From: Gammaproteobacteria bacterium
GTDB lineage: Bacteria; Pseudomonadota; Gammaproteobacteria; Steroidobacterales; GCA-2729495
DNA length: 10,937 bases
Reading direction: 5' to 3'
Assembly (NCBI GenBank): GCA_023150055.1
Contig: JAKLLP010000040.1
Location: 1-10,937 of the forward strand
The notes under the pieces are model-generated. The model did no database searches. It had not been told where the DNA came from and saw only the letters and a list, made by a program, of their open reading frames with translations. Shown one piece after another: positions 973-10,937 of the stretch. Each line of letters begins with the position of its first letter. Within the stretch, counting starts at the first letter, position 1. A program made the translations under genes and the position numbers.

Positions 973-1692
973 CTAAGTCGTCACTTCGTAGAAGATCCGG
1001 CGGGCCGTTTCCGCGCCGATCATCTTCGCCATCATGCCCTGTGCCTTGTCCTGGGTGCGTATATCGGTCACGAACTGCTCGCGCCGGCGGCCGATCGCGG
1101 CGAGCCGCTCGGGATCGGGCTCCGGCCGGTTGGCTGCAGCGAGATCGAGGTACACGCGCAGATACTCGAAGCCACAGCGCATGAAGTCGTCGAAGCGCTC
1201 TCTCGTAAACATCCCGTAGATGCCCGCCGGCGTGCGCCACTTGAGCATCCACTCCGGGTAACGGTCATCGCACTCGAAGGACGGATACCGGTCACGGACG
1301 GCACACAACGGGCCGACCCACTTGTCGACATAGGCCTCATCCGTGAACGGACAGTTGACGTTGACGTGCGCAATCAGCTTGCGCCCGGTGAGAAGACAGA
1401 AGAACAGGAAGACGGGTGTGTCGTACGACGTATCGGGATAGACGATGAAGTTCATCTGGCTGAGGGCCGGCAGCCTGACGTCGAAGCGCATGCCGAAGAT
1501 CTTGTGGTAGCCGGCCGCCCGCCAGTTCATGTGCCGGGCACGCAGGATTTTCAGGAAGGAGCGCGGTTCGGCGAGTTCTCCGGGGAGCGCGACCGGCTCG
1601 AGATGCAGCCGCCCGTCGACGAGCGCAATGAGATCCTGGAATCGCCGTTCCAGGTCGTAGTCATCGCGCCCCGCTCCTGCCTGTCCGGACAT
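973..1692 (-). CDS. Ferredoxin-dependent bilin reductase-like protein (HY2/PcyA superfamily), divergent
   Basis: This 239-residue protein matches the usual length of ferredoxin-dependent bilin reductases (PcyA, PebA, PebB, HY2; about 240-250 residues), which reduce linear tetrapyrroles with electrons from ferredoxin. The C-terminal part carries the family pattern: Gln206 to Val237, including TQDKAQGMMAKMIGAETARR, parallels the NDKTRRVLEKAFGE..AERY segment of PcyA. The core stretch NFIVYPDTSYDTPVFLFF (81-98) fits PcyA's HCVMFPEPLYGLPLFGCD. In this hand alignment PcyA His88 becomes Asn81 and Asp105 becomes Phe98, so the standard proton-relay residues appear lost. No signal peptide or membrane segment is evident, so it is probably cytoplasmic. 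It is the last gene of the operon, 24 nt after the molybdoenzyme stop. The ATG start has only a weak SD (GGCGG), which suits translational coupling. No heme oxygenase or biliprotein gene is nearby, so the substrate may not be a bilin. The fold assignment is fairly sure; the function is unknown. Confidence 0.72.
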   Translation of the reverse strand: MSGQAGAGRDDYDLERRFQDLIALVDGRLHLEPVALPGELAEPRSFLKILRARHMNWRAAGYHKIFGMRFDVRLPALSQMNFIVYPDTSYDTPVFLFFCLLTGRKLIAHVNVNCPFTDEAYVDKWVGPLCAVRDRYPSFECDDRYPEWMLKWRTPAGIYGMFTRERFDDFMRCGFEYLRVYLDLAAANRPEPDPERLAAIGRRREQFVTDIRTQDKAQGMMAKMIGAETARRIFYEVTT

Positions 1693-1716
1693 GCAACACC
1701 GCCGGCGCAGGGGCCG

Positions 1717-4515
1717 TCAGTCGCCGGCCTGTCCCGCGGCAGCGAGCTTTTCGAAATCGCAGGTGAAGTCATGGAAGGTGTGATTGGGCTCGAACGCCAG
1801 CGCCCGGTAGGTCACGTGTCCGTAGCCCCCGACGAGTGAGGTCGGCTTGATCAGCCCCGCGGTCGGAATCACGCCACCGAAGTTCCGTCGGCCGCGAAAG
1901 AGCATCGGGTCCCAGCCATGATACATGAACATTACACCCGGCTGCATGGCTGCGCTGACATTGGCCATGGCGGTGAACTCCCCGTGGCTGTTGAACACGC
2001 GAATGAGTTCTCCGTCCGCCACCGCACGCGCGCGGGCGTCCTCGGGGCTGACGTAGACATCCGGCTCACCGCGGCGCAGGTTCAGCAGGAAGCCATCGTC
2101 GGTCCACATGCTGTGGATGCCGTGCCGTACATGCCCCATCGTGAACTGCAGGGGATAACCCTCGAGCCTCAGTGGGTCCTTGTGACCGGGCAAAGCCTCA
2201 TCCTCCGCGAGAAACCACTCGTGGTCGAGGTAGAACTGCTGCCGGCCGGTCAGCGTCGGATAGGGCTCTCTGCCCTCCACCGCCCGCAGCATCACCGATC
2301 CGTAGGGCGCCTTCGGACCGTAAACGACGCGCTCGGTGTCGGCGTTGCGCATCAGGCCGGCGGCGGCCATCTCCTCGAAGGGTACCTTCGGAACGCCTTC
2401 GTCGCGATCGATTAGGAACTGGATCACGTCGAGGGTGGAAGTGATCTTTCCCCCATGGCGATATAGCTGGTGCACCTGCCCCAGGTCGCGGGGCAGTGGC
2501 TGACCGACGAAATCATCCATCACCGGACCGATGTTGCGCTCCCTCGCGCGCCGGCTGATGGCCTCGGCGATGCGGTCGATCGCGGTCCAGTCGTCCACCG
2601 CTTCGCCGAGCGGCGGCACGGCGATATCGAGCACCTGCACGTACGGCGTCCTCGCCTCCAGCATGAAGTCCTGGCGCTCGTAGTGGTGCGCGATGGGCAG
2701 CACGTAATCCGCGTACATGGCGGTGACACCCATGTCAGGCGTCATAGAGACGATGGTGGCGAGTTTCTCGAAAGCCTGGGCGCGCCAGTGGCTGCCGGAA
2801 GCGCGCCAGTTGGCGGTATTGCTGCCGGCGAAGAAGCCCATTTTCCAGGGGCGCTCGGCATAATCCGGGAACCAGCCCCGGCGGACGGACTCCTGGTAAT
2901 GGCGATCGAAGTGCGCCGCCAGTTCCTCGCCGTAGATTTCCTCGTTGAGCCTGCGTCCCCCGGCATGCGTGTAGTCCCAGCGGGACAGCGTCGCCACGCG
3001 GAAGGTCGGCGGCACATCGGCCATCATGAAGGCGAGCTGGCTGTCGACGCGCGCAAGGTTCTCAAGTTGCAGGCCGCCACCCGCCTTGCCGAGGTTGCCC
3101 GTCAGCGACAGCAGCAGCATGAACGAGCGCTGCAGGAGGTCGCCGTGCAGCCATTTGCACATGCGATAGCCGCTGAAGATCATCGCCGGCTTCGCCTGCG
3201 CGAACTTCAGCGCCACCTCGCGAATATTGGCGGCGTGCACGCCGGTCATCGCGGCAGCTTTCTCAGGCGTGTAGTCCCGGAGCCGCGTCTTCAGCAATTC
3301 GAATACCGTCGTCACTTCGACCGGGCCCGACACGGTCTGGATCGTCCAGCGTCCCTCCAGCGCCGGGCGGAGCTTCCCAAGCAGGAGGCTGCCGGCCGGG
3401 ATGACTGCCACCGGCGAGCCGGGCGGCGGCGGCGGATTGCCCGTAGCGGGCGCCGGAACGGCCCGGGAGGTCACCGTGTCCCACAGGTAAAAGAGGTTGT
3501 CGCGCCCGTCGCCGCTGACGTCGGTCTCGCGCAGGAAACGCTGGTTGTCGACGCGCACGAGGAACGGCAGATCGCTCTGCTCGCGCAGGTAGTCCGCGTC
3601 GAACAGGCGGTTTTCGACGATGACCTGCGCCATCGACAGCGCGAGCGCCGCGTCCGTACCCGGCTTCGGGTTGAGCCAGCGGCTGGCGTGCATTGCCGTC
3701 GGTGTGAACTCCGGCGAAATGGCCACGACCTCGGTGCCGTTGTAGCGTGCTTCCCAGAAAAAATGCGCGTCCGGGATGCGGGTCACCGCGGGATTGCAGT
3801 ACCACACGAGGCAACAGCGTGACTTGTACACCGCCGCCATCGTGTCGCCGAGCAGGGGCTCGCCGACGGTCATCATGACCCCGGTAGGCAGGTCGCCGAC
3901 GCCGGCGAATGCTTCGGGCAGCTCGATACCGGTGACGGTGCCGAAGCGGCCAAGGGCGGCAAATGAAGCGCGCTTGAGCACCATCTGGGTGCCGAGATCG
4001 AAGGTGATCGAGCGTGGGCCGGACTCCACGTAATGATCGATGAAGCGATCGGCGATCTCGTTCATCGCCTGCTCCCAGCCGATGCGCTCCCACCTGCCCT
4101 CACCGCGGCCGCCAACACGTTTCATCGGGTAAAGCACGCGTTGCTTCCCGTACATGTACTTCGCGTGGCGCAGCCCTTTCTGGCAGCCGCGCGGGCCGTA
4201 GTCGGGCGCATCCTCCGAGCGCCCGTACTCGCCCTGCTGCTCCTCGCGCCAGACAATGCCGTTTTTCACATAGACATTGAACGCGCAGTTGCCGGTGCAG
4301 TTGGTGCCGTGCGTACCGCGCACGACACGGTCCCAGGTCCACTTGCGCCGCATCAGGTCTTCCCAGCGTCCGTAGGGCCCGGCGAGTTCACCGGCACCTG
4401 TCTGCGCCGCTCCGGCATAGCGCAGCGATAACGCCGCCACTCCGCCGGCGAGGAACTGCCGGCGGTTCGCGCCGTTGCCGGGCAAGCTGGATTCGATCTT
4501 CTGTTCCGCGCCCAT
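1717..4515 (-). CDS. Type II DMSO reductase-family molybdopterin oxidoreductase, catalytic (alpha) subunit, Tat-exported
   Basis: This 932-residue protein belongs to the family of NarG, EbdA (ethylbenzene dehydrogenase), PadB, PcrA, SerA and steroid C25 dehydrogenase. The N-terminus has a Tat-like signal, NRRQFLAGGVAALSL (17-31), then AGAAQ as a possible cleavage area. The FS0 [4Fe-4S] ligands are His69, Cys73, Cys77 and Cys111 (HGTNCTGNC, then RGCQKG); a His first ligand marks type II. GDLPTG puts Asp208 where these enzymes have their Mo-ligating Asp (222/223 in NarG/EbdA). VWYCNPAVTRIPDAHFFWEA and the C-terminal HSMWTDD...LLNLRRGEPDVYVSPEDA are bis-MGD binding regions. The ATG was chosen because GGGG sits 7 nt upstream; the frame stays open further upstream but would overlap the preceding gene. 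Family members hydroxylate or dehydrogenate hydrocarbons and acyl-CoAs, or reduce oxyanions. Beta (FeS), gamma (heme b) and TorD/NarJ-like genes are absent, so its electron partner is unknown. The catabolic neighbours favour an oxidative role (inference). Confidence 0.92.
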   Translation of the reverse strand: MGAEQKIESSLPGNGANRRQFLAGGVAALSLRYAGAAQTGAGELAGPYGRWEDLMRRKWTWDRVVRGTHGTNCTGNCAFNVYVKNGIVWREEQQGEYGRSEDAPDYGPRGCQKGLRHAKYMYGKQRVLYPMKRVGGRGEGRWERIGWEQAMNEIADRFIDHYVESGPRSITFDLGTQMVLKRASFAALGRFGTVTGIELPEAFAGVGDLPTGVMMTVGEPLLGDTMAAVYKSRCCLVWYCNPAVTRIPDAHFFWEARYNGTEVVAISPEFTPTAMHASRWLNPKPGTDAALALSMAQVIVENRLFDADYLREQSDLPFLVRVDNQRFLRETDVSGDGRDNLFYLWDTVTSRAVPAPATGNPPPPPGSPVAVIPAGSLLLGKLRPALEGRWTIQTVSGPVEVTTVFELLKTRLRDYTPEKAAAMTGVHAANIREVALKFAQAKPAMIFSGYRMCKWLHGDLLQRSFMLLLSLTGNLGKAGGGLQLENLARVDSQLAFMMADVPPTFRVATLSRWDYTHAGGRRLNEEIYGEELAAHFDRHYQESVRRGWFPDYAERPWKMGFFAGSNTANWRASGSHWRAQAFEKLATIVSMTPDMGVTAMYADYVLPIAHHYERQDFMLEARTPYVQVLDIAVPPLGEAVDDWTAIDRIAEAISRRARERNIGPVMDDFVGQPLPRDLGQVHQLYRHGGKITSTLDVIQFLIDRDEGVPKVPFEEMAAAGLMRNADTERVVYGPKAPYGSVMLRAVEGREPYPTLTGRQQFYLDHEWFLAEDEALPGHKDPLRLEGYPLQFTMGHVRHGIHSMWTDDGFLLNLRRGEPDVYVSPEDARARAVADGELIRVFNSHGEFTAMANVSAAMQPGVMFMYHGWDPMLFRGRRNFGGVIPTAGLIKPTSLVGGYGHVTYRALAFEPNHTFHDFTCDFEKLAAAGQAGD

Positions 4516-4532
4516 TGCCAATCCCCAGTTGG

Positions 4533-5162
4533 TTAACGTTGCCCGTGCGCCCCGGGCGCCACCAACGGGCGCTCCGCACAGCGGTTGAGTGCCAGCTCGA
4601 CGAGCGGCATGCGGTCGTTGCCGAAGAACATGTTCTCGCCCACGAACATCGTGGGCGAGCCGAACCCGCCGCGTGACTTCAGCTCGTGGGTATTGCTCTC
4701 CAGCAGCTCGCGAGTGACCGGGTCCCCGGCGCGGCCGATGAATTCCGCCCGGTCCAGTCCTGCCGCCACCGCACAGGCGGCGACGACATCGAGCGAGTCG
4801 ATATCCTCGAGCGCGTTGAAGCAAGCCTCGAAGACGCACTCGCTGTAGGGCTCGATGCGGCCGAGCGCCTGCGCCACGACAGCCCCCCGCTGCGCCCACA
4901 GCGCAGGCACGGGAAAAGGCCCGGCATGCCGCATGCGCACCCCACAGAACTCTGCCCAGTCGGCCAGGTCCTTCTTCGCGTAACTGGCGCGTGCCGGATC
5001 CGTGGCCGGCCCAGCCGTGGCGCGATGCCGGCCCAACTCCTCGATGAGGATCGGCTTCCAGACGATCCGCGCCGAGGTGCGCAGCGCCACCTCACGCAAC
5101 CGCGCAAATGCCAGCCGGGTCCACGGGCAACCGTACGTGTAAAAAAAGGTGACCTCCGCCAT
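4533..5162 (-). CDS. DsbA-family / 2-hydroxychromene-2-carboxylate isomerase-like protein
   Basis: This 209-residue thioredoxin-fold protein has an inserted helical domain and the length of HCCA isomerases (kappa-class GST-like) and FrnE-type DsbA proteins. Strand 1 leads into YGCPWT (10-15): one Cys at residue 12, with Thr15 where a dithiol enzyme would have its second Cys. The C-terminal GGFGSPTMFVGENMFFGNDR (165-184) is the HCCA isomerase-type signature with cis-Pro170. HCCA isomerases use glutathione to isomerise a chromene intermediate in naphthalene degradation and have Ser at the active site, so the Cys here suggests a different thiol chemistry or a GSH-dependent step. No signal peptide is seen. 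The start MAEV... was chosen because it falls 5 nt after the ligase stop; an open extension upstream would overlap the ligase. The stop is 17 nt before the molybdoenzyme. Exact reaction unknown. Confidence 0.8.
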   Translation of the reverse strand: MAEVTFFYTYGCPWTRLAFARLREVALRTSARIVWKPILIEELGRHRATAGPATDPARASYAKKDLADWAEFCGVRMRHAGPFPVPALWAQRGAVVAQALGRIEPYSECVFEACFNALEDIDSLDVVAACAVAAGLDRAEFIGRAGDPVTRELLESNTHELKSRGGFGSPTMFVGENMFFGNDRMPLVELALNRCAERPLVAPGAHGQR

Positions 5163-5167
5163 CGGGC

Positions 5168-6697
5168 TCAGTCGCCGCCACGCAGGGCCGTCTTCAGCAC
5201 CTTGCCATTGGCATTGCGGGGGATGCGCCCGATGAACGCCACTACCTTGGGCGTCTTCATCCCGGAAATCCGTCCCTCGCAAAACCGCAGGATATCGTCG
5301 GCGGCCAGCTCCGCGCCCGCCCGCGCGACGATGAACGCCTTCAACTTCTCGCCCCACTTCTCGTCCGGTATGCCGACGACCGCCACTTCGGCCACGCCGG
5401 GGTGCTGCAACAGCACGTCCTCGATCTCGCGCGGATAGATGTTGACCCCACCGGATATCACCATGTCTTTCTTGCGATCGACGATATAGACGTGACCGTC
5501 CGCATCGCGCCGCGCGAGGTCGCCCACCGTCACCCAGCCATCCCGCCAGGCCTCCGTGGTCGCCTCGGGCTTATTCCAATATCCATTGAATAAATATGGA
5601 CTTGCCGAGAACAGCTCACCTACTTCATCGACAGCACAGAGGCTGCCGTCGTCGCGCCGGATCTCGACCTCGGTCGCCGGGAAGGGCTGGCCGACGCAGT
5701 TACGCTTGCGCAGCTGGTCCGCGGGGCGCAGGTTGGTCACGATCCCGGCCTCGGTGGAACCGTAAGTCTCGTGCAGGAGTCCCTCGCCGAAGTAAGCGAC
5801 GAGTTTTTCCTTCATCGGTTGGGGTAGCGGCGCGGCGTTCGAGATGACGGCCCGCAGCGTGCACGGGCGGCAGCGTTCCAGCAACGCCGGCTCGAGCGAC
5901 ATCAGCGCGTGAAAATGAGTGGGTACCCCGAAAAACCCGGTCATCGCCCCATCGCCGAGCCGTCGCAACACCTCTTCCGGGTCGAACTTCTCCAGGATTT
6001 CGCAGTGCCCTCCGGCCAGCACCGGCCCGAGGGCGAAGAGCATGCCGGCGCCATGACACATCGGGGCGATCGCGAGAAAGCGGTCGTCCGGCCCGAAGCA
6101 GCCGTATTCCATGGCCATGGCGAATGCGGTGAGGGCCCGGGATCGCTGGCTGACCAGGACGCCCTTTGGCTTGCCGGTGGTGCCGGAGGTGTAGGGGATC
6201 GTGAAAACGCTCCACTCCGGAATCAGCAGCGACCCTGCGGTCGGACGGGCCCGCTCCAGCCAGCCCTCGAAATCCGGCCCGATGACGATGACCTGCCGAA
6301 CGGTCCCGAAACTGCTGTCCGCAAGTGCCGCCGCCAGATCCGACGTGGTGAACAGCACGCGCGCTTCGGCGTCGTCGCAGATCGCCACCATCTCGGCGGG
6401 CGTCAGCCGCGGATTGATGGTCGCCAGCGGCATGCCTGCCTGCGAGGCGCCGAAAACGATCTCCATGTACTCGATCGAGTTGGGCGCGATGATCGCGGCA
6501 TGCTCACCGGCCCGCTGCCCCGCCAGCAGCGCCGCGGTCACCCGGTTCATGCGATCGACCAGCTCGGCATAAGTGCGCCGACGCCCGCGATGCGTAAAGG
6601 CGATCTTCTGTGGGGCGCGCTGCATCGCCGAGCGCAGGGCTCCCGCCATGGTCAGGTGCCTGAAGGAGAATGGCAGCTCTACGTTACGCGTTTCCAC
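5168..6697 (-). CDS. AMP-dependent acyl-CoA synthetase/ligase
   Basis: This 509-residue, full-length member of the ANL superfamily activates a carboxylic acid with ATP to an acyl-AMP and then an acyl-CoA in the cytoplasm. Motifs in order: P-loop YTSGTTGKPKG (169-179), TYGSTEAG (311-318), the ATP-ribose Asp in GDLARR (393), hinge VDRKKDMVISGGVNIYPREI (407-426), and the catalytic Lys499 in NANGK. All key residues are present, so it should be active. The overall look is that of medium-chain, cyclohexane-carboxylate or aryl acid ligases, but specificity cannot be read from this. The start is GTG with CCTC/GAGG 9 nt upstream and a second GAGGAG at 14 nt. It sits 18 nt after the amidohydrolase stop. 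Its place in the operon suggests it activates the pathway substrate or an intermediate. Confidence 0.93.
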   Translation of the reverse strand: METRNVELPFSFRHLTMAGALRSAMQRAPQKIAFTHRGRRRTYAELVDRMNRVTAALLAGQRAGEHAAIIAPNSIEYMEIVFGASQAGMPLATINPRLTPAEMVAICDDAEARVLFTTSDLAAALADSSFGTVRQVIVIGPDFEGWLERARPTAGSLLIPEWSVFTIPYTSGTTGKPKGVLVSQRSRALTAFAMAMEYGCFGPDDRFLAIAPMCHGAGMLFALGPVLAGGHCEILEKFDPEEVLRRLGDGAMTGFFGVPTHFHALMSLEPALLERCRPCTLRAVISNAAPLPQPMKEKLVAYFGEGLLHETYGSTEAGIVTNLRPADQLRKRNCVGQPFPATEVEIRRDDGSLCAVDEVGELFSASPYLFNGYWNKPEATTEAWRDGWVTVGDLARRDADGHVYIVDRKKDMVISGGVNIYPREIEDVLLQHPGVAEVAVVGIPDEKWGEKLKAFIVARAGAELAADDILRFCEGRISGMKTPKVVAFIGRIPRNANGKVLKTALRGGD

Positions 6698-6715
6698 CTG
6701 TGGCTGCCTCGCTCC

Positions 6716-7576
6716 TCAATGCGGCAAGCGGAACACCCGCAAGGCATTTTCACGCATCATCAGGCGCAGGGCTTCATCCCGCATCCCGAGCTCGTCGATC
6801 TCGGCGACCGCGCGCTCGGGATCGATCACCGGCCAGTCGGTGCCGAACAGTACTTTTTCGCGTCCGTAGCTGTTGGCGTAATGCACGAACGGGGCCGGCC
6901 AGTGCCGGGGCGCATAGGCGTCGCCGGCCGTGTACACATTCTCGTGCTTCCAGCACATCGAGATCATTTCCTCCGTCCAGGGTACCCCGATGTGGATGCC
7001 GATGATGCGCAACTCGGGGAAATCTATGGCCACGCGGTCGAGGCAGATCGGCCGGCCGACGCTCGGCAAGCGGCGATGGCGCGAGTACACGAGGTTGTGC
7101 CCCACCTGCATCATGATCGGGATATCGAGCTCACAGCACTTCGCGTAATAGGGGTAATACCTGGCGTGGTCCGGGGGCAGCTCGCACCAGTGCGGGTAAA
7201 GATGCGCACCCACGAAGCCGTACTCACGCACCGAGCGCTCGAGGTCCCGCAGCCCCTGCATGCCACGAAACGGATCGACCCCGGCAAGTCCCGAGAAACG
7301 TTCGGGATACTGCCGACAGACTTCGTGCACCCGCTCGTAGGGAATCTCGAAGGACCCGCGGACGTTGATGTCCCCTGCCCTGACCGCAATCAACAGCGAA
7401 CGCTCGATACCGGCCCGATCCATCTTCTGCAGGTAGCGCTCGATGGTGACGCCACCGCGGATGTCCTCCGGCATGCGCACCTGCGCCTTGAAGTCCTCGT
7501 CCAGCCCGGTCCGGCCGTTGGCGACCTCGTCGGGCGTGAACAGGTTACAGACGATATCGATCGAGCCCGCTATCAT
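6716..7576 (-). CDS. Amidohydrolase_2-family protein (ACMSD-like TIM barrel), N-terminal metal motif altered
   Basis: This 286-residue protein has the pattern of the PF04909 family, which holds decarboxylases and hydrolases of aromatic and dicarboxylic acids (ACMSD, gamma-resorcylate decarboxylase). Family landmarks are GAHLYPHW (123-130, His125 and His129), MMQVGHN (155-161, His160), GIHIGVPW (193-200, His195) and LFGTDWP (243-249, Asp247). The usual N-terminal D-x-H-x-H metal motif reads Asp7-Ile-Val-Cys-Asn11, so both histidines are missing. The enzyme may bind metal differently, be metal-free, or have changed function. The ATG at 7576 was chosen because it overlaps the stop of the upstream cupin gene (TGATG), a typical coupled arrangement; a GTG one codon earlier is possible. 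The acyl-CoA ligase follows 18 nt later. Family fairly sure, reaction unknown. Confidence 0.82.
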   Translation of the reverse strand: MIAGSIDIVCNLFTPDEVANGRTGLDEDFKAQVRMPEDIRGGVTIERYLQKMDRAGIERSLLIAVRAGDINVRGSFEIPYERVHEVCRQYPERFSGLAGVDPFRGMQGLRDLERSVREYGFVGAHLYPHWCELPPDHARYYPYYAKCCELDIPIMMQVGHNLVYSRHRRLPSVGRPICLDRVAIDFPELRIIGIHIGVPWTEEMISMCWKHENVYTAGDAYAPRHWPAPFVHYANSYGREKVLFGTDWPVIDPERAVAEIDELGMRDEALRLMMRENALRVFRLPH

Positions 7577-8429
7577 CACCAGCCGTCCATGTCCCAGTCG
7601 CCGGTGGAACGCGACCGCACCGGTATGCCGGCAATGAGCGGGGCCTGGCTGACCGGGTCGTAGTTGAGCGCCTTGCCCTCGACGATGATCTTCTCCTCGA
7701 CGGTAATCCAGTTCACCAGGCTCCCATCGAGGCGGAAGATACCCATGTAACCCTTCTCCTCGCCGGCGATGAAGTGGCCGTGCTTGACGCGCGCCGGGCG
7801 GAAGAAATGTAGGCCTCCTCGAAGACCGGGTGATGCACCAGGCGTGAATCCGACCAGCCGGGCGGCGCCCAGCAGACCATGGTCAGAAAGCCCTTGCGGG
7901 GATTCTCGGGCGGCGCCGGATCATGATAGAGCGCCTTCAGCTTGAGGTAGCGCTGGGTGTCCCCCTCGTAGATGTTCGGTAGCCACTCGAGCCGGTTGAC
8001 ATCGGCCACCGTGAGCTTGCCGGCCTCTCGCGACGAGGTGTTCAGCCCCCGTGGCACGAATTTCGAACGGTTTTTGGACGAGAGGCTGAAGCCCCAGTCA
8101 CCGTATTCCCTGAACAACAGCACCTCGGTACCGGCCTTGACGGAGATCTCCGGCACCCGCAACCCGGCCGGCGCCCGGAAGTAGTTGCCCTTGCCAAGCA
8201 CGCGCTCGCCGAGACGCACCTCGCCGCCCAGCACATACCACTCCGTGTCGGCGTGGTGATATCCGCCTGGCCTGTGCCAGGCCGACTCGAACCGCACCTT
8301 GGTGGAGGCACTCCCGTCCTCCTCGTCGTACGACATGTTGCGCTGCCGGGCGCGACCTTCGCCCCGCGGCAACTCCGCCTCGTGCCAGCAGAGATCAGCC
8401 TGCTGAATCAGTTCCACATGGGGTCTCAT
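7576..8429 (-). CDS. Bicupin-domain protein, frameshifted in this sequence
   Basis: This is the first gene of the operon. The ATG at 8429 has a strong SD (GAGGAG, 6 nt spacer). The first cupin domain contains HRPGGYHHADTEWYVLGGEV (52-71), with His58, His59 and Glu63 as likely metal ligands, followed by LGKGNYFRAPAG. A second cupin begins near WAPPGWSDSRLVHHPVFEEA (187-206). At codon 208-209 the frame breaks: the original frame runs into low-quality Ser/Arg/Thr-rich sequence ending at 7713. The neighbouring frame continues the domain as FRPARVKHGHFIAGEEKGYM and on to DWDMDGW, stopping with TGA at 7576-7578, which overlaps the next gene. The intact product would be about 284 residues. Cupins of this type (ChrR or DUF4437-like) include dioxygenases, isomerases and binding proteins; no reaction can be assigned. 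The break may be a real mutation or a sequencing or assembly error. Confidence 0.8.
7801..7808 (-). other. Frameshift site in the bicupin gene
   Basis: The minus strand reads TAC ATT TCT TCC, giving Y-I-S-S. One extra T (TAC ATT TTC TTC CGC, giving Y-I-F-F-R) would rejoin the two halves of the domain, so this looks like a one-base deletion. It is not a canonical X XXY YYZ slippery site, which makes programmed frameshifting unlikely. Confidence 0.75.
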
Positions 8430-8623: not shown

Positions 8624-8653
8624 ATGCAGCACAGGACACCCCGGGGGCCTCAC

Positions 8654-9412
8654 ATGACGTCGGTCGAGATCTGGCAATACCTGCACGTGCTGATGTTCGT
8701 GTTCTGGGTCGGGACCGACATGGGCGTCATGCTCAGCGCGAGAAAATCCACCGACAGCCGCCTGACCCTGGAAACACGGCTCATGCTCGTCAAGATGGCG
8801 CTGTTGATCGAACTGCTGCCACGGACGATGTGGGCGATGGCGCTGCCTTTCGGCGTGGTCCTGTCCAGGGAGGTCGGCCTGCTGGAGATCTCCGACGCGG
8901 CCCTCGCAGGCGTGTGGATCTTTACGCTCGCCTGGGTCGCGATCAGTCTCGGTGGTGCGCATTTCTCCGAAAAGCCCTTCGGCCAGCGGCTGGCTGCCAT
9001 CAACCGCTGGATCATCGGCGTACTCGGCATCGGCCTCGCCGCCGTCGGCGCCTGGTCGTATTTCGGTGATGGGCCCTTCGACTCGGCCTGGCTCGCCGCC
9101 AAGGTCGGTCTCTACGGCCTGATCAACCTGACCGTGCTCGGCATCGAGGCGGCGTTCGTGCCGGTCGGCCCCGCCTTCGGCCGCTTGTTCGGTGAGGGCT
9201 CGACACCGGCGGTCGAAGCAGCCATCGCCAAGGGCATGCGCACCACCATGTTCTGGGTCTATGCGAGCTACATACTGATCCTGATCGTAGGGTTCATCGG
9301 CGTGGCGAAACCCGCGGCGATCAGCATCGCCTTCCTCGCCTATTTCACCTGCATCGCGCTCGCCGCCAGTGCCGCGTTCACGGGCATGGGCAGGATGCTG
9401 TGCTCGGCCTGA
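8654..9412 (+). CDS. Polytopic inner-membrane protein of unknown function
   Basis: This 252-residue, strongly hydrophobic protein has about six or seven predicted membrane segments, near residues 7-27, 45-70, 84-101, 117-136, 148-170, 198-217 and 221-241. The N-terminus YLHVLMFVFWVGTDMGVML resembles the LHxL..FWVG start seen in CopD/DUF2269-like membrane proteins, where a His in the first helix can bind heme or metal; that resemblance is only suggestive. The ATG at 8654 was chosen over one at 8624 because GGGGG lies 6 nt upstream and the first helix follows directly. The HpnN-like transporter starts immediately downstream, so the two are probably co-transcribed and may act together at the membrane. 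Function not recognised. Confidence 0.75.
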   Translation: MTSVEIWQYLHVLMFVFWVGTDMGVMLSARKSTDSRLTLETRLMLVKMALLIELLPRTMWAMALPFGVVLSREVGLLEISDAALAGVWIFTLAWVAISLGGAHFSEKPFGQRLAAINRWIIGVLGIGLAAVGAWSYFGDGPFDSAWLAAKVGLYGLINLTVLGIEAAFVPVGPAFGRLFGEGSTPAVEAAIAKGMRTTMFWVYASYILILIVGFIGVAKPAAISIAFLAYFTCIALAASAAFTGMGRMLCSA

Positions 9413-9438
9413 CAGCCCGCGACGCAGCCGCGAACACC

Positions 9439-10937
9439 ATGCGCGTGTTGCGTCACCCTCGCCTGGTGGTCCTGGCCGTATTGATCGCGACGCTCGCCGC
9501 CGCGCGCCTCGCCTCTACGCAGCTCGGCCTGAATACGGACACGGCCGCCCTGCTCTCGGCCGACCTCCCGTTCCGTCAGGCCCACCGTCACTACCAGGAA
9601 CAGTTTCCTGCCATGGTGGACGTGTTCCTGGCAGTCATCGACGGGAATAGCGAGGAGCGCGCCACGAATGCGGCACGGGCGCTTGTCGCTGCGCTCGAAT
9701 CGAACCCCGACCTGTTTCCGGAGGTGTCGCTCCAGGACTCGGAGGCATACTTCGAGCGGAACGCGCTGCTCTATCCCGCGGCGGAAGAACTGGAGCAGAT
9801 CATCGACCGCCTGATCGCCGGCCAGGCCCTCATCGGCTTGCTGGCGCGCGACCCGAGCTTGCCCGGTCTGGCGAGCGGCCTCGGGACCATCCTGGGCGAG
9901 GCGTCACCGGGGGACCCCGCCGTAACCCGGCTGCTGGCCGCCATCGAGCCCGGCCTCGACACCCCGCCGGAACCGGTGTCGTGGCAGGCAGTACTGATGG
10001 ACGAGACGCCATTTGGCCCTGCGGCACGCCGCCTGGTGATGATCAAACCGGCGCTCGATTTCAACGCGCTGCTGCCGGCCGACCGCGCCATGGCGGCCTT
10101 GCGCGCGGCCATCGATGACACCGAGGCGGTCTATCCGGATACGCGGATCCGCGTCACCGGGGATGCGGCGCTGGCCCACGAAGAGCTGGACGCGGCGCTG
10201 TCCGGCACGCTGCTGACCGCGGTCCTGGCGCTCGCCGCCATCACGGCCCTGCTCATCCTCGGACTCGGCACGGCCTGGCTCGCCGGCGCCTGCCTCGCGA
10301 GCCTCCTCAGCGGGCTGGCACTGACCGCGGGATTTGCGGCGCTCGCGGTGGGTGAGCTGAATCTCATCTCTCTGGCTTTCGGCGTGCTCTACATCGGGCT
10401 CGCGGTCGATTACTCGATTCACTTCTGCCTCGCCTACCGCGAGGAGTTGCCGAGGCACGGCGCGCGTGAAGCCGCGCTGTACGCCGCCATGACGCAGCTG
10501 CGCCGTCCGCTCGTGCTATGCACCGTGACGACCGCGCTCGGCTTTCTGGCATACCTGCCGACTGCTTTCCGGGGCATTGCCGAACTCGGCCTGATCGCCG
10601 GAGCAGGCATGGTCATCAACCTGCTGCTGACATTCCTGCTGCTGCCGGCGCTGCTCGCCTGCCTGCCACGACCACCCGCCTGGCTGCCGCCTGAACGGCC
10701 CGGCGGTCGCATCCCGGCGCGCAGCGTGCTCCTCGCCGCTGCGCCCCTCACGCTCGCTGGCGCCGCGTTGCTGCCCTCGTTGAGTTTCGATCGCGATCCG
10801 CTCAACCTGCGCGACCCGTCGTCGGAGTCGGTGGCGACCTTCCGTGCCCTGCTGGCCGACCCGGGGCAGGCAGCACAGGGGGTGACCGTGCTGCTGCCGG
10901 ACCCCGACACGGCCCGCCGGATGGCCGCGGACCTCGC
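9439..10937 (+). CDS. hpnN: RND/MMPL-family transporter, HpnN-like (hopanoid transport), 3' end missing
   Basis: 499 residues are visible and the gene runs off the right edge; full HpnN proteins are about 850-900 residues. After an N-terminal membrane helix comes LGLNTDTAALLSADLPFRQA, close to the NTDT..LSPDLPFR pattern at the start of the first periplasmic domain of HpnN. Membrane helices from about residue 255 include GLAVDYSIHF (320-329), the MMPL/RND GxxxDY motif with Asp324 as likely proton relay. A second periplasmic domain opens with FDRDPLNLRDPSSESVATF, also HpnN-like. HpnN moves hopanoids from the inner to the outer membrane. The ATG at 9439 lacks an SD; a GTG at 9400, preceded by AGGA and overlapping the previous gene by 13 nt, is an equally possible start. 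No other hopanoid gene is in view, so a related lipid-exporter role remains possible. Confidence 0.83.
   Translation, partial: MRVLRHPRLVVLAVLIATLAAARLASTQLGLNTDTAALLSADLPFRQAHRHYQEQFPAMVDVFLAVIDGNSEERATNAARALVAALESNPDLFPEVSLQDSEAYFERNALLYPAAEELEQIIDRLIAGQALIGLLARDPSLPGLASGLGTILGEASPGDPAVTRLLAAIEPGLDTPPEPVSWQAVLMDETPFGPAARRLVMIKPALDFNALLPADRAMAALRAAIDDTEAVYPDTRIRVTGDAALAHEELDAALSGTLLTAVLALAAITALLILGLGTAWLAGACLASLLSGLALTAGFAALAVGELNLISLAFGVLYIGLAVDYSIHFCLAYREELPRHGAREAALYAAMTQLRRPLVLCTVTTALGFLAYLPTAFRGIAELGLIAGAGMVINLLLTFLLLPALLACLPRPPAWLPPERPGGRIPARSVLLAAAPLTLAGAALLPSLSFDRDPLNLRDPSSESVATFRALLADPGQAAQGVTVLLPDPDTARRMAADL

Follow-up and report, generated by a model that had tools for sequence, protein, structure and literature searches.

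Whether an uncommon combination of genes, in which a molybdoenzyme stands beside a protein of the bilin reductase fold, forms a functional unit, and what such a unit might act upon, is the question raised by a short contig of a gammaproteobacterial draft genome (G000; 2.65 Mb, 73% complete). The window analysed here is that entire contig, JAKLLP010000040.1, of 10,937 bases, and six of its minus-strand genes occupy positions 8429 to 973. Read along that strand, they encode a DUF4437 bicupin (CUP, 7579-8429), an Amidohydro_2 family enzyme (AMH, 6716-7579), an AMP-forming acyl-coenzyme A (CoA) ligase (ACS, 5168-6697), a DsbA-fold protein resembling 2-hydroxychromene-2-carboxylate (HCCA) isomerases (DSBA, 4533-5162), a type II dimethyl sulfoxide (DMSO) reductase alpha subunit (Mo, 1717-4515) and a bilin-reductase-fold protein (FDBR, 973-1692). 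The gaps between the matched parts from AMH through FDBR measure 11-27 bases. A first-pass annotation had described six tightly packed genes of these families in a combination that it did not recognise. Pfam and NCBIfam profile searches bear out the description with corrected coordinates for Mo, DSBA and the bicupin (the Mo and DSBA translations used as search queries begin one residue later than the revised starts), and no account of the combination was found in the open-licence literature, judged by title and abstract. The locus is a real, conserved and uncharacterised operon, in which the pairing of Mo with FDBR is lineage-limited.

The distribution of the gene order among related bacteria carries this conclusion. 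Mo genes of the type found in the operon (clade A) and stretches of up to 20 kb around them were searched with the window proteins, and 34 loci were compared, 27 of them in the window's own family (f1, window included) and seven in f14, a second family of the same gammaproteobacterial order with small genomes (1.1-1.6 Mb). This set excludes the f1 genomes with clade A fragments only (G046, G050, G051) and four f14 genomes with matches (G065, G096, G109, G118). The order CUP-AMH-ACS-DSBA-Mo is complete and on one strand in 28 of the 34 loci (22 of 27 in f1, 6 of 7 in f14), and because it is kept to this extent the five-gene combination is more than chance. Among the variants, G008 has the core order intact with about 6.7 kb between ACS and DSBA, and in G123 of f14 the CUP match is split into two pieces. 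The six incomplete loci comprise G049 and G052, which have no CUP match; G054, with AMH, ACS and Mo alone and Mo cut by the contig end; G047 and the f14 genome G037, both truncated by a contig end; and G011, where TM262 (a divergent gene described below) and Mo stand alone, with Mo near the contig end. Thus, the earlier expectation that all six genes would be kept together in relatives holds for a five-gene core across two families and only in part for FDBR, which directly follows Mo in 8 of the 34 loci.

The molybdoenzyme scores 834.8 bits against TIGR03479, the model for type II DMSO-reductase alpha subunits, which is below the cut-off of 984.75. Alignments to solved chains (5e7o, 4ydd, 2ivf) were also made, and the identity between Mo and PcrA, ClrA or EbdA is 34-35% (34% for EbdA). 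The Mo genes of these bacteria, taken as a whole group, are monophyletic with a support of 1.0; within the type II DMSO-reductase alpha subunits they make up a well-supported clade that excludes the known enzymes compared. This clade shows no tight grouping with EbdA and is separate from the PcrA branch. The prediction that the molybdoenzyme would not group tightly with an enzyme of known substrate therefore stands for a tree that compared PcrA, ClrA and EbdA and left out S25dA, CmdA, DdhA and SerA, four further members of the type II family (PMC10100899).

At the residue level, the AGVGD stretch of Mo aligns with YGD of PcrA and IGD of EbdA, so that an aspartate is kept at the position that we take to be the molybdenum ligand in both enzymes. 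An aspartate ligand is given for the type II lineage in the same source (PMC10100899). Mo also has the histidine and cysteines of an FS0 motif (H68, C72, C76 and C110 in the 931-residue numbering) and an EbdA-like K-x-x-H-G-D-L stretch. Its Lys454, counted from the ATG, aligns with Lys450 of EbdA, presumably an active-site residue. A twin-arginine motif, RRQFL, read by eye and not by a signal-peptide program, marks a putative twin-arginine translocation (Tat) leader. The likeness to the type II family is thus one of aspartate ligand, FS0 motif and twin-arginine motif, together with a beta subunit encoded in most of the family genomes and a TorD/EbdD-like chaperone at an f14 beta locus. Among the differences, this alpha subunit has no full-length beta gene beside it and is tied to a CoA ligase, amidohydrolase and bicupin set. 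A metagenome protein of 1237 residues (P0221), in which ACS runs straight into Mo in one frame, was not accepted as a fusion; its twin-arginine leader is internal and DSBA is missing.

At least one Mo gene is present in 39 of the 40 genomes of the window's family, two or more per genome being usual. Across the order the clade is found in 50 of 196 genomes (38 in the window's family, 11 in f14 and one in f11), and across the class in two of 369, both again of the window's family. Clade A itself occurs in 30 of the 40 family genomes, as assigned by identity and, where the region was fetched, by operon, with three assignments resting on fragments. Clade B genes, about 55-63% identical to the window Mo, usually have a beta subunit gene and a nitrilase-fold gene as neighbours; a third type (f14, f11 and some f1) adjoins a TorD-like chaperone and a beta subunit. 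No characterised member of this branch was found. Ten of the 11 f14 genomes gave at least two Mo matches, and for genomes of this size to keep two enzymes of the kind implies that they serve an important part of carbon or nitrogen turnover. Separately, Mo genes in G018:C152 and G010:C149 (L113 and L114) group with PcrA with full support, and each is followed by a beta subunit over the cut-off.

A beta subunit over the TIGR03478 cut-off is encoded in 32 of the 40 family genomes. Of 40 such genes, 39 have a Mo gene of another type no more than 2 kb away and one (G024:C35) adjoins no Mo gene; clade A Mo genes have none at this distance. In G024 a partial beta gene, under the cut-off, directly follows the clade A Mo. 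This distribution suggests that the clade A alpha subunit usually borrows a beta subunit encoded elsewhere in the genome. The gamma subunit (TIGR03477) is over its cut-off in none of the 40 genomes and gave two weak matches. At an f14 beta locus a TorD/EbdD-like chaperone (TIGR03482, 94.5 bits) falls under its cut-off, and in f14 a major facilitator superfamily (MFS) protein adjoining beta carries a C-terminal CxxCH tail, seen by eye and without a Pfam cytochrome match. FDBR was considered as a stand-in for the beta subunit and rejected, as only C173 of its cysteines is invariant in 28 sequences and it shows no beta-type iron-sulfur motif.

FDBR is an accessory, an optional and lineage-limited add-on to the operon. 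The eight loci in which it directly follows Mo are all in f1 (G000, G013, G014, G020, G021, G043, G044, G045), and the idea of an obligate partner of Mo was rejected on this count. The slot after Mo is unreadable in five of the 34 loci (G008, G011, G023, G042, G054), with less than 0.7 kb to the contig end. FDBR orthologues (E <= 1e-34) are present in 19 of the 40 family genomes, a weaker match in G053 and an additional weak one in G021 having been treated as paralogues and dropped from the count, and 11 of the 19 were not found directly after Mo. In G008, G042 and G054 the gene sits on a different contig from Mo. The G054 gene is probably a ninth operon copy divided by a contig split, because FDBR ends contig C56 (11359 of 11388) and C142 begins with a truncated Mo. 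Elsewhere FDBR follows his-type genes (G015, G022), occupies other, non-operon surroundings (G008, G017, G024, G040, G041, G042, G052) or is partial (G046). All 19 carriers possess a clade A Mo (in G046 as a fragment only), which makes 19 carriers among the 30 clade A genomes and none among the 10 family genomes that lack clade A (Fisher p 0.0005, relatedness ignored). At E <= 1e-30 it is found in 20 of the 196 genomes of the order, 19 in f1 and one in a family f3 genome that has no member of the Mo clade, and in none of the f14 genomes. In the FDBR tree, whose root was not used (outgroup branch length 10), the window copy groups with non-operon copies of G052 and G008, apart from the operon copies of groups g5 and g6 (support 91 for the branch that separates them), and FDBR may therefore have joined the same operon slot twice.

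As a protein, FDBR belongs to the bilin reductase superfamily (PF05996, Fe_bilin_red, 57.8 bits against a cut-off of 31). Its AlphaFold (AF2) model has a predicted local distance difference test score (pLDDT) of 90.7, and Foldseek matches it to PebA, PebB, HY2, PcyA and RCCR (plant red chlorophyll catabolite reductase), with TM-scores of 0.81/0.83 against PebA. All 28 sequences compared have Asp215 on the C-terminal helix, and Phe or Cys stands at the position aligned with the acid of the PcyA Asp105 type. That acid is a usual catalytic one according to a study that also reports active FDBRs of heterotrophs, associated with heme oxygenase, iron-sulfur, V4R and globin genes, as well as a lineage, pre-1, without the PcyA residues (PMC10151467). 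The present protein shares with known FDBRs, including the pre-PcyA proteins of heterotrophs in that study (PMC10151467), its fold, Pfam family, C-terminal aspartate and non-photosynthetic hosts; it differs in the residue at the Asp105 position, in a gene that can sit in a molybdoenzyme operon and in the scarcity of canonical heme oxygenase. A search for heme oxygenase of the PF01126 type, which covers neither IsdG, HugZ nor other unrelated types, matched two of the 40 family genomes, both weakly, and gave no match in the incomplete G000. The G005 match (22 bits, over the cut-off when counted with frame neighbours) is in a genome without an FDBR orthologue, and the G014 match (19.8 bits, under the cut-off) is in a genome whose operon includes FDBR. 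Because heme oxygenase is so scarce and one usual catalytic acid is missing, biliverdin is unlikely to be the substrate. A bilin reductase fold is thus found in genomes that mostly lack canonical heme oxygenase.

Further members of the superfamily were seen in these genomes. A profile scan of contigs for FDBR returned two named relatives only. A second FDBR-family gene in G000 (L001:1459-2382 on G000:C501; 62.6 bits) has relatives of 47-58% identity in G013, G014, G017, G020 and G021. A locus of group g7 (L039:2714-12544 in G015, and also L040 in G022) contains an FDBR paralogue with a PF05996 score of 26.1 bits, under the cut-off; its other genes encode MFS transporters, two proteins of the polysaccharide deacetylase fold, an isochorismatase, a GST, an SDR and a Rieske oxygenase of the VanA/SdmA type. 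Rieske oxygenases recur near FDBR-family genes (L003, L038, L039, L040, L041, L043, L044), a recurrence to be read against a base rate in those genomes that was not measured; the six scanned all have Rieske and VanA_C domains, and L040 was assigned by clustering only. A chlorophyll-type pair of PaO and RCCR-like proteins was considered and rejected, the six scanned Rieske proteins being VanA_C/SdmA-like.

The genes beyond the operon bear on what it may act upon. Genes for an MFS transporter and a UbiD-type decarboxylase recur, together with two nitrilase-fold genes, at many clade A loci of both f1 and f14. A gene pair encoding a PuuE-like protein, whose best solved relatives include PuuE allantoinase, and an isochorismatase-fold protein, whose best solved relatives include N-carbamoylsarcosine amidohydrolases, lies near clade A in five g7/g9 loci (L085, L086, L088, L089, L093) and at the beta-bearing Mo gene in three f14 loci. 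The first nitrilase-fold type (at least 67% identity) is found in 26 of the 30 clade A genomes and in none of the 10 others, and the four clade A genomes without it (G000, G042, G046, G054) are 72-87% complete. It keeps a cysteine at the expected place in the two proteins aligned. Taken together, the conserved neighbours find their closest solved or curated relatives among hydrolases of the PuuE allantoinase, N-carbamoylsarcosine amidohydrolase and aliphatic-amidase types. As a separate observation, the PuuE-like and isochorismatase-fold proteins of the five g7/g9 loci are 67-81% identical to those of f14, which is unusually high between families.

The operon is probably used in the breakdown of a nitrogen-containing organic compound, since several of the conserved neighbours are amide-, ureide- or nitrile-type hydrolases. 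The explanation that best accommodates the whole, and to which we would give roughly even chances, is that the window carries a catabolic operon in which Mo oxidises such a compound, with CoA activation and hydrolysis to follow. On this account Mo would be exported by Tat, acquire a beta subunit whose gene usually lies at a different Mo locus, oxidise or hydroxylate the compound with water and pass the electrons to a c-type cytochrome. The product would enter the cell by MFS transport and be CoA-activated by ACS, after which AMH, CUP and DSBA, with the nitrilase-fold, PuuE-like and carbamoyl-amidase-like hydrolases, would open or trim it. Where present, FDBR would use ferredoxin to reduce a conjugated intermediate other than biliverdin from a canonical heme oxygenase. 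Three features lead us to infer an oxidative direction of catalysis: Mo is linked to a CoA ligase, a protein with a CxxCH tail adjoins beta in f14, and Mo has a lysine like that of EbdA. The first-pass annotation had envisaged a pathway for a hydrophobic aromatic, terpenoid, steroid or tetrapyrrole-derived acid; the catabolic role fits, but the conserved neighbours identified include none specific to steroids, terpenoids or hydrocarbons (their annotation not being exhaustive), and the hydrolases point to a nitrogen-containing compound. The conserved neighbours make this substrate class testable.

A number of points weigh against this proposal. The neighbouring hydrolases all score under the equivalog cut-offs of their NCBIfam models, which also sets them apart from the characterised hydrolases named above, and the second and clade B nitrilase-fold types lack the catalytic cysteine (two proteins of each aligned). 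The window itself holds no C-N hydrolase besides AMH, and G000, at 73% completeness, gave no match to the first nitrilase-fold gene at E <= 1e-80. The PuuE-like gene (at least 75% identity) does not track clade A, with 26 of 30 genomes as against 8 of 10, and may belong to another route. Within the Mo tree, the clade A gene of f14 is not grouped with that of f1 despite the same gene order, and the genome counts are not phylogenetically independent. The direction of catalysis is itself a matter of deduction, and the substrate cannot be read from sequence.

FDBR may stand outside any such pathway as a hitchhiker, an independently useful ferredoxin-dependent reductase at the operon end in some lineages, and this is a serious contender whose chances we place somewhat short of even. 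Orthologues elsewhere follow his-type genes (L029 and L031, with Pfam his families for L031) or adjoin a Rieske oxygenase (L003) or a molybdopterin oxidoreductase (L034), and its occurrence in the f3 genome together with its absence from f14 is in keeping with such independence; its restriction, within the family, to clade A genomes and its possible double entry into the same slot speak for a closer tie. A further alternative is a role of the operon in tetrapyrrole or bilin breakdown, in which oxidative cleavage would give maleimide-like imides with propionate side chains, FDBR would reduce linear tetrapyrroles, ACS would activate the side chains and the PuuE-like and isochorismatase-fold enzymes would open the imides. 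The fold matches of FDBR suggest such a role, as does the g7 locus, where the FDBR paralogue is accompanied by an isochorismatase, a Rieske oxygenase and the two genes of the polysaccharide deacetylase fold. It is nonetheless improbable: FDBR was not found in 11 of the 30 clade A genomes or in f14, heme oxygenase is scarce, the Rieske protein has no PaO domain match and a canonical FDBR acid is missing. A pigment-dismantling route in which FDBR would reduce open-chain fragments that do not stem from canonical heme oxygenase, the exported Mo would oxidise them, and the CoA ligase with imide and ureide hydrolases would finish the side chains and maleimide-like rings appears very doubtful.

Other alternatives concern Mo itself. 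The best solved relative of the enzyme is perchlorate reductase, at 556 bits as against 414 for ethylbenzene dehydrogenase, which counts against an oxidative role and would suit a respiratory reductase of an oxyanion or an N- or S-oxide with only loosely related cytosolic genes. The linkage of Mo to a CoA ligase and an amidohydrolase in two families and its separation from the PcrA branch make that account unlikely. The TIGR03479 family resemblance and the K-x-x-H-G-D-L stretch would in turn fit an enzyme of the EbdA/S25dA type that hydroxylates hydrocarbons or steroids, with the operon degrading a hydrocarbon-derived acid. This too seems a poor prospect in view of the distance from EbdA in the tree as sampled, the lack of a gamma subunit over the cut-off and neighbours that, as far as identified, are not steroid- or hydrocarbon-specific.

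Further detail is available for the remaining core proteins. The CUP frame (PF14499, 79.9 bits) is broken near 7810-7824 in the window, where tblastn similarity to the G014 orthologue covers 8429-7809 and then continues in a different frame at 7824-7582. The open reading frame (ORF) at 7713-8429 is therefore not the whole gene, and the break may be an assembly error or a real lesion. The second cupin keeps an HHxxxEE motif (conserved columns H199, H200, E204, E205). Metal-dependent Amidohydro_2 enzymes usually have an HxH motif at strand 1; AMH (PF04909, 146 bits) has D8-x-V-x-N12 there, a motif shared by all eight proteins aligned, including those of Comamonas, Rhizobium, Variovorax and Roseomonas, and it keeps H126, H130, H196 and D248. 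ACS (PF00501, 251.8 bits) matches NCBIfam acyl-CoA ligase models, all under cut-off among the 25 matches listed. DSBA (PF01323), with PDB entries 2imd and 3fz5 as its nearest solved chains, both 2-hydroxychromene-2-carboxylate isomerases, has a conserved C11-P12-W13 motif and is the least conserved core member (30-64% identity).

AMH-ACS pairs are also known from plasmids of Comamonas, Rhizobium, Variovorax and Roseomonas, where an AMH of 48-55% identity adjoins an adenylate-forming ligase (28-31%), divergently oriented in Roseomonas, and an isochorismatase is annotated nearby in three of the four. On the Comamonas plasmid two PuuE-like genes and an isochorismatase accompany the AMH (55% identical) and the ligase. 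These regions differ from the operon in that their annotation, which is incomplete, names no type II molybdoenzyme, DUF4437 bicupin or FDBR, and plasmid searches with Mo, FDBR and CUP gave distant relatives only.

Upstream of the core and divergent from it lies TM262 (8624-9412, plus strand), an all-helical and probably membrane protein, whose true start may be internal to the called ORF. In 24 of the 34 loci the gene lies upstream of CUP or AMH at a distance of up to about 1.4 kb, with 47-75% identity across loci (the window copy itself not counted) and an invariant H21. It is off its usual place in G015 and G022 (elsewhere in the stretch) and in G011 (adjoining Mo), and it was not found in seven loci, six of which begin or end at a contig edge there. 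TM262 has no Pfam match, and its AF2 model (pLDDT 83.2) has no PDB fold match at E <= 0.001. Within the window no promoter-like sites were found, and three terminator-like sites were found as against 4.4 expected. Beyond TM262, positions 9400-10935 hold an HpnN-like hopanoid RND transporter gene (454.7 bits, under cut-off) that the contig end cuts. At the opposite end a partial ORF (2-754), which gave no match in Pfam and NCBIfam profile searches, ends in VPLPAAAWLL...RRRK, presumably resembling a PEP-CTERM sorting tail, and is followed at 788-813 by a GC-rich stem with a T-rich tail.

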